Shown here piece by piece: positions 20,664 to 26,489 of a stretch of 64,000 bases of DNA (positions within the stretch are counted from its first letter, which is position 1; the number at the start of each line of letters is the position of its first letter). Origin of the DNA: Pseudomonadota bacterium. GTDB lineage: Bacteria > Desulfobacterota > Desulfovibrionia > Desulfovibrionales > Desulfovibrionaceae. Position numbers and translations under genes: made by a program. The DNA lies in contig JAHIUW010000006.1 in the NCBI GenBank assembly GCA_018816865.1, forward strand, positions 1 to 64,000, written 5' to 3'. The notes beneath the pieces are model-generated. The model saw only the letters and a list, made by a program, of their open reading frames with translations. It did not search any database and was not told the DNA's origin.

Positions 20664-20877
20664 TTTCTGGTTATCCCCTGCTCGACGCTATGTCTAGACT
20701 TTTTCAAGACTTCGTTGCTGCCTTCGCTTGTCTTTCCATCTTGTACAACTGTCCAAGGTGCAGCAACCAAAAACCGGGCCGCGCTCTTCGCGCTGCAAAA
20801 TCTTGGGACAAGGACTGACGAGAACCGCCTGGACGTGCTACGATCCTGGCATGAACCATACCAGGAAGGAGACTACA

Positions 20878-21279
20878 ATGACCAAACAGCTGATAGGTAC
20901 AACGCTCGTGCTGCTGACCCTGCTCAGCGCGTCCCCCCCTGCCTGTGCTGTGGACGTGAACATGATCGAGCCCGCCGAACTGCTCCTGAGGATCGGGTCC
21001 CCGGATCTCTTTGTGGTGGACGTGCGCACCCCCTCCAGTTGGAACAGGAGCGACCACAAGATCCCCGGGGCCATCCGGGCGAACCCCAAGGACGTCACCG
21101 AGCTCGAACAGCAGATCCCCCCGGGCAGTGAAGTCGTGCTGTATTGCGCCTGACCCAATGAATACACCAGCGCCCGTGTGGCGCGTCAGTTGCTGGAATG
21201 GGGCCACGAAAGGGTCACTGTCCTACGGGGTGGCTGGCAGGCCTGGGAGGAAGCGGGATACCCCGTGGAGCCCAAGTAG
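20878..21279 (+). CDS. secreted rhodanese with in-frame TGA (probable selenoprotein)
   Basis: A 133-codon rhodanese-domain gene if TGA at 21151-21153 (codon 92) is read through. A signal peptide (about residues 1-24, ending PACA) predicts a periplasmic protein. After LFVVDVRTPSSW and KIPGAIRANP the frame reaches VVLYCA, then TGA, then PNEYTSARVARQL and the canonical rhodanese ending VLRGGWQAWEEAGYPV. In relatives the motif is YC-x-C-PNE, so TGA stands where a cysteine is expected, one base from TGC. A SECIS-like hairpin follows. I infer Sec92; a nonsense mutation or sequencing error is the alternative. An AAGGAG site precedes the ATG at 20878. A terminator-like perfect palindrome follows at 21431. 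Confidence 0.78.
21151..21184 (+). promoter_or_regulatory. UGA codon and candidate bacterial SECIS hairpin
   Basis: After the in-frame TGA (21151-21153) comes GCGCC-CGTGT-GGCGC at 21170-21184, a perfect 5-bp stem with a 5-base loop. The loop begins 21 bases after the TGA and has G as its second base, within the limits used for bacterial SECIS elements. The flanking CCAG and CTGG could extend the stem with bulges. The fit is a by-eye assessment, not a folding calculation. Confidence 0.6.
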
Positions 21280-21651
21280 GGCGGCGTCTTCCGCGCACAC
21301 CCAATGCAGGAACCCGGAACCGACCCCGAACGGAATACGGCCCGAGTCTTGCCGGACAGGACACTCTTGCCCTGCGCTGCCTGGAATTGAATCCCCTTTC
21401 ATGGAGCAAGGTTAGCAAAAATTCACTTCTGTCTTGCGTTGCAAGATTAATCTTGCAACGCAAGACGCTTTTCATGGCTTTTCCCCCGTTCACCTGGCCC
21501 ATCCAGGGAATCAACACTACTTCATCCCCCTGCAACTGCACATCAATCTCACCTGTGGCATCCTTTATGTTTGTTGATGCAGCAGACTACGTCCGGCCCA
21601 TGCGGGGCCATGGCCGCTGGCACGACCAACGAACCAGACGCTGGAGGGAGT
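21280..21651 (+). other. gene-free stretch with a 36-base perfect palindrome
   Basis: No convincing gene lies between the rhodanese stop and the HdrD-like start. The main feature is an exact 36-base palindrome at 21431-21466: each half is 18 bases, beginning GTCTTGCGTTGCAAGATT, and it has no spacer. It is followed by GCTTTTC. It could be the terminator of the rhodanese mRNA or a dimeric protein site. Confidence 0.7.
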
Positions 21652-24566: not shown

Positions 24567-26489
24567 ATGAAAATCAACTCCATACGCCTTGCGGCCCTGC
24601 TGCTGCTGATTCTGCTAATGCCCGCCTCCGCGCTGGCCGTGCCCGCAGCCCCGCCAGATTTCTACTCCCTCAAATGGGAGTTGTTCCGCGTGGGCGAGGC
24701 CGAACCGGCCCCCGAACTGCTGGCTGTGCTCTGGCTGGAGCTGGACGAGGGCTACCACGCCTATGCCAACCCGCCCGGCGAAACGGGAATGCCCACGCAC
24801 CTCTCCGTCTCCGTGGACCAAGGCCCGGCACTCAAGGTCATCTATCCCGAAGGCGAGGAAGGACCCGACGTGTTCGACCCCTCCCTCAGGGTGCATTCCT
24901 ATTATGGCGCCACGCCGCTGTTCGTGCGCCTGGGGCGACTGCCAGCCAAGGCCGAAGCCCTGTCCGGGACCCTGTCCTTTGCCGCCTGCTCCGACACCAA
25001 CTGCTGGCCGCTGCGCGAAAATGTCTCCCTGCCACTGGCAGGCCTGGACCTCGCAGCCCTGCCCGATGCCCGGAGCTTCTTCTGGTACGAATTCTATCTC
25101 AGCAACGAATTCACCAATGATGGCGCCTCGGCCAAGGGCGGTCTCCCGTCCGCGGCGGGCTCCACCGGCCAACCCACCGTCAACGACGCCCAGGCAGGAT
25201 TTCGGCCCGAGGCGATCCCCGTGACGACCCCCGAGGCGGTCCCCACGCCAAGCACACAGTGGAGCTTCAGCCCCAGCTATTTCCATCCGGGCCTGGAGGT
25301 CTCCAGCATTGGTCTGGCTCTGGCCTTCGCCTTTGTGGCGGGTCTGCTGTTGAATTTCATGCCCTGCGTCCTGCCGGTCCTGAGCCTGAAGCTCTCGGGG
25401 CTGATGGCCGGGTCCGAGGGAAAAGGCGAGGCCGCGCGCAAGCGCACCTTCCGCGATCACAACCTGTTCTTTTCCGCCGGGGTCCTGCTCTATTTCCTGT
25501 TTCTGGGTGCGCTGCTGTCCAGCCTGGGACTGGCCTGGGGGCAGTTGTTTCAGACCCCAAAGATCGTCCTGGCACTAGCCGCCGTGGTCTTCGCCCTGGG
25601 TCTGTCCCTGTTCGGGCTGTGGGACCTGCCCGTGGTGGACTTGAAGTCCGGCCTTCCTTCCAAGAACCCCAGGGTCTGCGCCATGTTCACGGGCGTCCTG
25701 GCGACCCTGTTGGCCACCCCGTGCAGTGGGCCGTTCCTGGGCGGGGTCCTGGGCTGGGTGCTGCTGCAACCGCCCGAGGTCATCATGGCTGTCTTCCTGT
25801 CCATCGGCCTGGGCATGGCCTCGCCGTTTCTGCTCATGGTCGCCCAACCCGGCCTGGTCCGTTTCTTCCCCCGTCCAGGGGCCTGGATGAGCTACCTCGA
25901 GACCGGGGTGGGCTTCTTCCTGATGGGCACCGTGCTCTACCTGCTGGCCATCCTGCCCCAGGCCATGCTGCTGCCGTCCCTGATGCTGCTCCTGGCCGTG
26001 GCCTTCGCCGCCTGGATGTGGGGCCGCTGGACCAACCTCTCGCAGCCCGCAATCAAGCGCGGGACCATCCGTCTTGCGGCCACGGCATTGGTCGCCCTGG
26101 CCGCGCTGATGCTCTTTGCGCCCCAGGCAGCCCCCGTGAAATGGCAATCCTTCGAGCCCCAGGCCTTTCGCTCCTTGCTGGGTCAACAACCTCTTGTGGT
26201 GGATTTCACAGCAGACTGGTGCCCCAACTGCAAGGTCCTGGAGCACACCACCCTGAAGCCCGACAACCTCATCGCATGGCAAGAGCGCTTCGGGCTGACC
26301 TACGTGCAGGTGGACATGACCCAGGACAACCCCGAGGGCCTGGCCCTGCTGCGCGCCCTGGGCAGCCAGTCCATCCCCGTGGTGGCCATCTTCCCCCCCG
26401 GCGCGGGCTCTGCGACCCCGCTGGTGCTGCGCGACCTGTTCAGCGCCGCGCAGATGGACGAGGCCCTGCGAACAGCCCTGGGCCAATAG
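24567..26489 (+). CDS. dsbD: thiol:disulfide interchange protein DsbD
   Basis: DsbD carries electrons from cytoplasmic thioredoxin across the inner membrane to reduce periplasmic disulfides, for instance in cytochrome c maturation. The 640-residue protein has all three parts. A signal peptide and periplasmic N-domain contain the cysteine pair in CSDTNCW. A central membrane domain of about eight helices has Cys in MPCVLPVLSLKL and ATPCSGPFLGG. The C-terminal thioredoxin-like domain has DWCPNCKVLE. About 25 bases separate it from the PhzF-like gene, so they may share a transcript. The ribosome site is weak. Confidence 0.95.
   Translation: MKINSIRLAALLLLILLMPASALAVPAAPPDFYSLKWELFRVGEAEPAPELLAVLWLELDEGYHAYANPPGETGMPTHLSVSVDQGPALKVIYPEGEEGPDVFDPSLRVHSYYGATPLFVRLGRLPAKAEALSGTLSFAACSDTNCWPLRENVSLPLAGLDLAALPDARSFFWYEFYLSNEFTNDGASAKGGLPSAAGSTGQPTVNDAQAGFRPEAIPVTTPEAVPTPSTQWSFSPSYFHPGLEVSSIGLALAFAFVAGLLLNFMPCVLPVLSLKLSGLMAGSEGKGEAARKRTFRDHNLFFSAGVLLYFLFLGALLSSLGLAWGQLFQTPKIVLALAAVVFALGLSLFGLWDLPVVDLKSGLPSKNPRVCAMFTGVLATLLATPCSGPFLGGVLGWVLLQPPEVIMAVFLSIGLGMASPFLLMVAQPGLVRFFPRPGAWMSYLETGVGFFLMGTVLYLLAILPQAMLLPSLMLLLAVAFAAWMWGRWTNLSQPAIKRGTIRLAATALVALAALMLFAPQAAPVKWQSFEPQAFRSLLGQQPLVVDFTADWCPNCKVLEHTTLKPDNLIAWQERFGLTYVQVDMTQDNPEGLALLRALGSQSIPVVAIFPPGAGSATPLVLRDLFSAAQMDEALRTALGQ

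Follow-up and report, generated by a model that had tools for sequence, protein, structure and literature searches.

The canonical active loop of rhodaneses has the form CxxGxR. Sud, the polysulfide-sulfur transferase of Wolinella succinogenes, is periplasmic and, to our knowledge, carries no Cys-x-Sec pair. Rhodanese-related selenoproteins have also been described already, as the original prediction had held. NCBIfam includes the family NF041203 ('rhodanese_LYCAU', rhodanese-related (seleno)protein), and the table of a 2026 review gives this type as 'rhodanese-like domain-containing protein form 3, CxU', with one Sec (PMC13188914). TsoB (NF045694), which resembles a rhodanese/DsbD fusion, is a further selenoprotein of this kind, with UxxxxU as its listed motif, two Sec and a DsbD part. 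A passage of a 2022 review describes the functions of most such predicted selenoproteins as not clear (PMC9312934).

The window, that is the whole stretch of 64,000 nucleotides analyzed here, contains a gene of this type. We conclude with high confidence that this NF041203 gene truly encodes a selenoprotein, in a bacterium that possesses dissimilatory sulfite reductase. The window gene adds a member to a family that had been catalogued before. Its product scores 134.7 bits against NF041203 (cut-off 115), covering profile positions 6-126 of 126, and agrees with the family in score, in the LYCAU motif and in having one Sec, with no difference seen. When the whole genome was scanned with the same model, seven places matched and only the window gene was above the cut-off (127.2 bits). 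Unlike TsoB, the window protein is a single CxU domain, and the TsoB model (cut-off 805 bits) is not among the six NCBIfam matches of the window rhodanese. With Sud (PDB 1qxn) it shares the rhodanese fold at 21% identity, and with GlpE-type and other canonical single-domain rhodaneses it shares the fold and PF00581; the GlpE model, however, gave 23.2 against a cut-off of 102, and in the window protein the loop Cys and Ser stand two residues further apart than in the canonical proteins L059-L061.

Gene structure and active-site loop

Translation of the frame from the ATG at 20878-20880 confirmed a single in-frame TGA, at codon 92 (Table 1), flanked by VVLYCA and PNEYTSARVARQL and followed by 41 more codons and a normal TAG stop. 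The Pfam rhodanese domain extends across the TGA. The 133-residue product has a signal-like start, MTKQLIGTTLVLLTLLSASPPACA, and the loop VVLYCAUPNEYTSARVARQL, in which YCAU at residues 89-92 forms the CxU. An AlphaFold2 model, computed with Cys substituted for Sec and an input of nine sequences, had a mean pLDDT of 85.8 and comprised a rhodanese domain with a strand at 85-89, then Cys90 and a helix at 93-107. Foldseek searches with this model retrieved rhodaneses, including Sud of Wolinella (E 1.6e-5).

Export of the protein, also anticipated, is supported but not proved. All 26 Sec-encoding members of the same taxonomic family have a hydrophobic stretch at the N-terminus, with 13 or more of 14 residues drawn from a loose set, and simple rules place an AxA motif ahead of the mature part in 19 of them. 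The window protein is thus putatively exported to the periplasm.

Table 1. Features of the window gene and of related loci. Window features carry window positions; positions at other loci follow the locus identifier.
Feature	Position	Strand	Remarks
Sec-containing rhodanese-fold gene	20878..21279	+	133 codons, TGA almost certainly Sec, stop TAG 21277-21279
Shine-Dalgarno-like AGGAAGGAG	20863..20871	+	6 nt 5' of ATG, read off the sequence
Putative signal peptide	20878..20949	+	Residues 1-24, end ACA; hydrophobic stretch and AxA rules
Rhodanese domain	20971..21252	+	Residues 32-125, Pfam PF00581 57.2 bits; AlphaFold2 model matches rhodanese folds
Cys90 codon	21145..21147	+	First residue past strand 85-89 in the model; second TGA (Sec) in 12/128 placed phylum matches
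Sec92 codon TGA	21151..21153	+	Same place in family and phylum homologues
Bacterial SECIS hairpin	21170..21184	+	Stem GCGCC/GGCGC, loop CGTGT, loop 21 nt past TGA
Upstream membrane-protein-like gene	L063:6548-7873, L069:6500-7873, L084:6641-7879, L088:6823-8016	+	Plus 14 more loci
Sec rhodanese + eight-CxxCH cytochrome fusion, UxU	L127:2197-3846	+	CxxCH count
Sec rhodanese + eight-CxxCH cytochrome fusion, UxU	L128:544-2148	-	CxxCH count, Pfam Multi-haem_cyto
Sec rhodanese + eight-CxxCH cytochrome fusion, UxU	L130:2815-4653	+	CxxCH count
Sec rhodanese + eight-CxxCH cytochrome fusion, CxU	L131:1129-2736	-	CxxCH count, Pfam Multi-haem_cyto

The active loop reads C-A-U-P-N-E-Y-T-S, which is two residues longer than CGGGYRS of L059-L061, and the canonical CxxGxR motif was not found in it. 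Which residue occupies the canonical catalytic position depends on the alignment. Profile alignment with canonical relatives by hhalign favors Cys90, which it pairs with the canonical Cys, leaving A91-U92 as two inserted residues, while the ungapped phmmer alignment with 6mxv favors Sec92, placing it on the YC cysteine of that protein.

Both loop residues were compared among homologues from the wider phylum. Among 395 genomes, 89 had a match at E 1e-18 or better, yielding 129 rows besides the window, of which 128 could be placed and one contained an internal TAA. At position 92, 106 of the placed matches have Sec, 9 have Cys, 10 have Ser, 2 have Ala and one has Val; as the profile was built from 17 Sec and one Cys sequences and cut at E 1e-18, the share of Sec cannot be taken as unbiased. 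At position 90 they have Cys in 114, Sec in 12 and Ser in 2, so that each of the two positions is found both as Cys and as Sec. The expectation that relatives would carry Cys or Sec at position 92 therefore holds for all 28 homologues of the same family and for 115 of the 128 placed phylum matches, but not for the remaining 13, a minority of distant relatives. Among the nine rows labelled CxS, three have a TGA at some other place of the aligned stretch, and at least one of these (L167, YCCSU) reflects an alignment shift.

These data bear on the possibility that the same selenoprotein is a classical ping-pong sulfurtransferase with thiosulfate or mercaptopyruvate as donor, in which Sec92 would be the sulfur-carrying nucleophile and Cys90 secondary. 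The rhodanese fold, recognized both by PF00581 and by Foldseek, agrees with such a role, as does the ungapped alignment, in which not only does Sec92 fall on the YC cysteine of 6mxv but the spacing from Sec92 to Ser98 also equals the Cys-to-Ser spacing there. However, the profile alignment assigns the canonical Cys to Cys90 and treats A91-U92 as inserted, Cys or Sec is more regularly present at position 90 (126 of 128) than at position 92, and the loop departs from CxxGxR. We consider this reading rather unlikely. The original prediction of a periplasmic Sec-dependent sulfurtransferase stands as regards the TGA, the loop, the hairpin and likely export; sulfurtransferase activity we only infer, since the loop lacks CxxGxR and is longer. 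Instead, we favor a Cys-Sec redox pair, for which the two-Sec and cytochrome-fused relatives described below are the main grounds.

Decoding of the in-frame TGA

Homologues with one TGA at the aligned place were found in 26 of 199 genomes of the same family, the window genome included. The original prediction had placed this TGA in the reactive loop of a rhodanese, in the place of a cysteine. The loop position was borne out, and among the 28 family homologues position 92 is Sec in 26 and Cys (TGC) in two, L020 and L027. The weaker family matches, among those listed, have no TGA. In the scan of named genomes the query carried Cys for Sec, so that only Cys forms were detectable. From the TGA to the stop, 25 of the 26 members have exactly 41 codons and one has 46. 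A sequencing error is unlikely, since the same TGA is found in 26 genomes.

The codons past the TGA evolve as coding sequence. Between the window gene and that of its congener, dN is 0.22 and dS 0.64 in this tail, and the eight closest pairs have dN/dS values between 0.02 and 0.17. When all 325 pairs are taken, pN/pS spans 0.05 to 0.90 and synonymous sites are saturated. Window and congener differ more at nonsynonymous sites in the tail than in the 41 codons 5' of the TGA (pN 0.19 vs. 0.13). Purifying selection acts on the tail, as seen in the close pairs.

The 5-bp hairpin with a G near the loop start that had been noticed 21 bases past the TGA is present (GCGCC/CGTGT/GGCGC). Its stem begins 16 nt past the TGA, the loop has 5 nt with G second, and the energy is -7.6 kcal/mol for the stem alone or -9.0 kcal/mol. 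The published bSECIS model, as given in the Fig. 2 legend of PMC13188914, has a loop of 3-9 nt situated 16-37 nt after the UGA, a stem of 4-16 bp, G among the first two loop positions and an energy of -7.5 or lower. The window hairpin lies within these limits, energy included. An Rfam scan returned no family at threshold. Folded in isolation, it was not more stable than shuffled sequences in three cuts of the window (z +0.46, +0.51 and +1.39). Since its stability is like that of shuffles and no Rfam family matched, a single sequence would not prove the hairpin, and comparison was needed.

We therefore scored a fixed hairpin (loop at 21 nt and of the form xG[GU]xx, stem of at least 4 pairs). 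It is kept in 24 of the 26 Sec members of the family, where 400 synonymous recodings of each sequence give an expectation of 1.16; L012 and L024 fail. Of the phylum's CxU rows, 92 were tested and 89 have it, against 5.2 expected (2 of the 94 were left out as too short, unreadable or with a stop), as do all 12 UxU rows against 0.5 expected. When a contiguous stem of -7.5 kcal/mol or lower is required, which is stricter, 12 of the 26 family members pass against 1.1 expected, the window gene among them. Neither of the family's two Cys forms passes the fixed-hairpin test; both retain a 4-bp hairpin that is weaker (-3.7) and displaced by one base.

Covariation points the same way in part. Stem cells are paired at 98.5% in the family, the covariation score is 0.320 against 0.156 in shuffles, and 10 stem cells are changed on both sides against 1.9, with changes from C-G to U-A and from G-C to A-U and U-G. 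Of the five covariation measures, three were matched by none of 500 shuffles, while two were unexceptional, namely pairs changed on both sides (reached in 62 of 500 shuffles) and further pair types (445 of 500). Codon choice is tightest in the hairpin, where Val is GTG in 20 of 20 cases, Arg is CGT or CGG in 24 of 24 and Ser is AGY in 26 of 26.

As the original prediction had proposed looking for, the machinery for selenocysteine is encoded in the same genome: tRNA-Sec (76.3 bits), SelB (391.9), SelA (606.3) and SelD (345.1) are each above the cut-off. The presence of tRNA-Sec in all 26 carriers was rejected as weak evidence, since 169 of the 199 family genomes also have it. The SelD match (L048, G000:C21:41386-42303, minus strand) itself contains one in-frame TGA, and this protein is probably a selenoprotein as well. 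By a dsrA match of 620.7 bits the host possesses dissimilatory sulfite reductase, and it probably reduces sulfite or sulfate.

Taken as a whole, both sides of the TGA are conserved and selected as one protein and a SECIS-type hairpin lies at a fixed distance, which shows that the codon is decoded; by this comparison of sequences it is almost certainly a Sec codon. By homology, SelB and Sec-tRNA would read it, aided by the hairpin. Insertion of another residue, Trp or Cys by suppression, would fit the Cys or Ser that some relatives have at position 92; against it are the complete Sec machinery, the fixed hairpin that both Cys forms of the family fail and the fact that neither tally, of 28 or of 128, includes a Trp here, and we judge it highly improbable. 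That the TGA is a true stop, leaving a pseudogene or a 91-residue protein with a relic frame downstream, would accord with the standard code and with the unexceptional stability of the isolated hairpin, but it is strongly disfavored by the comparative data (the same TGA across the family and in 106 of the 128 placed phylum matches, selection past it in close pairs and the kept hairpin), and its probability is close to nil.

Two-selenocysteine, fused and cysteine-containing relatives

In 12 loci from 11 genomes (L117, L119 and L121-L130) a second TGA lies exactly at the Cys90 codon, so that the rhodanese loop reads Tyr-Sec-x-Sec (UxU). On a tree from which the columns in question were left out, the UxU label needs nine changes by parsimony, and starred branches force at least four; the tree has few columns and many open forks, and the changes may be gains or losses. 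The two-Sec loop thus appears to have changed more than once. UxU is not mentioned in PMC13188914 or PMC12013277, and a limited literature search for UxU selenoproteins found one paper, unrelated to judge by its title and the opening of its abstract; a like search for multihaem-cytochrome forms gave one genome paper.

Fusions were sought in 14 chosen loci. Four of these, a minimum number for the relatives as a whole, encode a rhodanese that runs on without a break in frame into a region with eight CxxCH motifs (Table 1). The two that were scanned, L128 and L131, match Pfam Multi-haem_cyto and, at scores far under its cut-off, hydrazine dehydrogenase. Attachment of c-type haem takes place outside the cytoplasm, which supports a periplasmic, electron-transferring role of the fused relatives. 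The UxU and the cytochrome-fused relatives go beyond the entry 'CxU, 1' in the table of the 2026 review (PMC13188914).

Other arrangements were also observed. A VTT/DedA-type membrane domain is, by sequence, fused to a CxU rhodanese in L132-L135 and L139, and to a CxC (Cys-form) rhodanese in L053-L057, which are Nitrospirota and Bryobacterales records. The domain scan of L132 gave 34.3 bits for VTT against a cut-off of 33.9, and L054 was the Cys form scanned for it. A stand-alone Cys form in Desulfatitalea (L052) scores 170.4 bits against NF041203.

Genomic neighborhood

The neighbors of NF041203-type genes vary between lineages. In 18 of 26 relatives with a Sec rhodanese, belonging to three genera, a gene that by eye encodes a membrane protein lies directly upstream on the same strand (17 cases from the neighborhood comparison, and G095 from match coordinates). 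Its product has 392-474 residues in most cases. None of the four members scanned matched Pfam or NCBIfam, and a profile search against PDB sequences gave no match. The gene occurs in 23 of the 199 family genomes, in 22 of them strongly, and 18 of these 22 have the Sec rhodanese (Fisher p 6e-16, uncorrected for kinship, with the 18 falling in three genera). In four genomes a gene of this type occurs with no NF041203-family rhodanese in the surrounding 3-kb stretch. A genome search did not find it in the window genome or its congener, and we have thus rejected it as an obligatory partner of the window protein.

Five neighbors of the window rhodanese were compared. These are a regulator-like gene on the minus strand (helix-turn-helix by eye, no Pfam match), a gene for an iron-sulfur protein weakly like HmcF, DsrK and TmcB, a ketopantoate-reductase-like gene, a DsbD-like gene and, upstream, a glycosyltransferase gene. 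All five adjoin the rhodanese of the congener and none adjoins any of the 26 other loci compared, so that synteny singles out none of them. The DsbD-like thiol:disulfide interchange gene (24567-26489, plus strand) lies 3.3 kb downstream; the thioredoxin-like part of its product contains Cys-Pro-Asn-Cys, and its score against the selenoprotein TsoB is 149 bits (cut-off 805). It was considered as the electron donor by adjacency and rejected, since all the neighbors are equally shared with the congener only.

Between the rhodanese and the iron-sulfur gene there is a perfect 36-nt palindrome, GTCTTGCGTTGCAAGATT/AATCTTGCAACGCAAGAC, at 21431-21466, followed by GCTTTT. Its pattern recurs at one other place in the window genome, with 3 mismatches, and no inverted repeat was found in the scanned stretches of the congener. 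The palindrome is probably a terminator.

Proposed function and implications

In the reading that we favor, Cys and Sec would form a redox pair whose substrate is sulfane sulfur or a related species; our grounds are that some relatives are UxU and some are fused to cytochromes. As homology suggests, the exported protein would fold as a single rhodanese domain, with the loop Cys90-x-Sec92 just ahead of a helix. In the periplasm Sec92 and Cys90 would form a selenenylsulfide redox pair, which may take up or reduce sulfane sulfur (persulfide, polysulfide or thiosulfate) or a related chalcogen species, with electrons supplied to the pair by periplasmic carriers. A diselenide would take the place of this pair in the UxU relatives, and the fused relatives would have the multihaem cytochrome of the same chain as electron partner. 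The mechanism as a whole we give an even chance.

A broader suggestion, offered tentatively and with some doubt, is that NF041203 proteins might be periplasmic chalcogen-handling enzymes wired to the respiratory chain. The rhodanese fold would have been turned into a dichalcogen redox centre (Cys-Sec, and Sec-Sec in a dozen relatives) at which electrons from c-type cytochromes serve to reduce sulfane sulfur or a selenium species, Cys having been swapped with Sec apparently more than once to give a diselenide site.

The gene in the window is easily mis-annotated, and the comparison gives quantitative support for reading its TGA as Sec. It also provides testable handles on the function of NF041203, namely the two-Sec loop, the fusion to an eight-CxxCH cytochrome, which points to periplasmic electron transfer, and the unrecognised membrane-protein-like gene that is consistently adjacent in three genera. 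We believe that the UxU and the cytochrome-fused relatives, more surprising than the window gene itself, are the part worth following.
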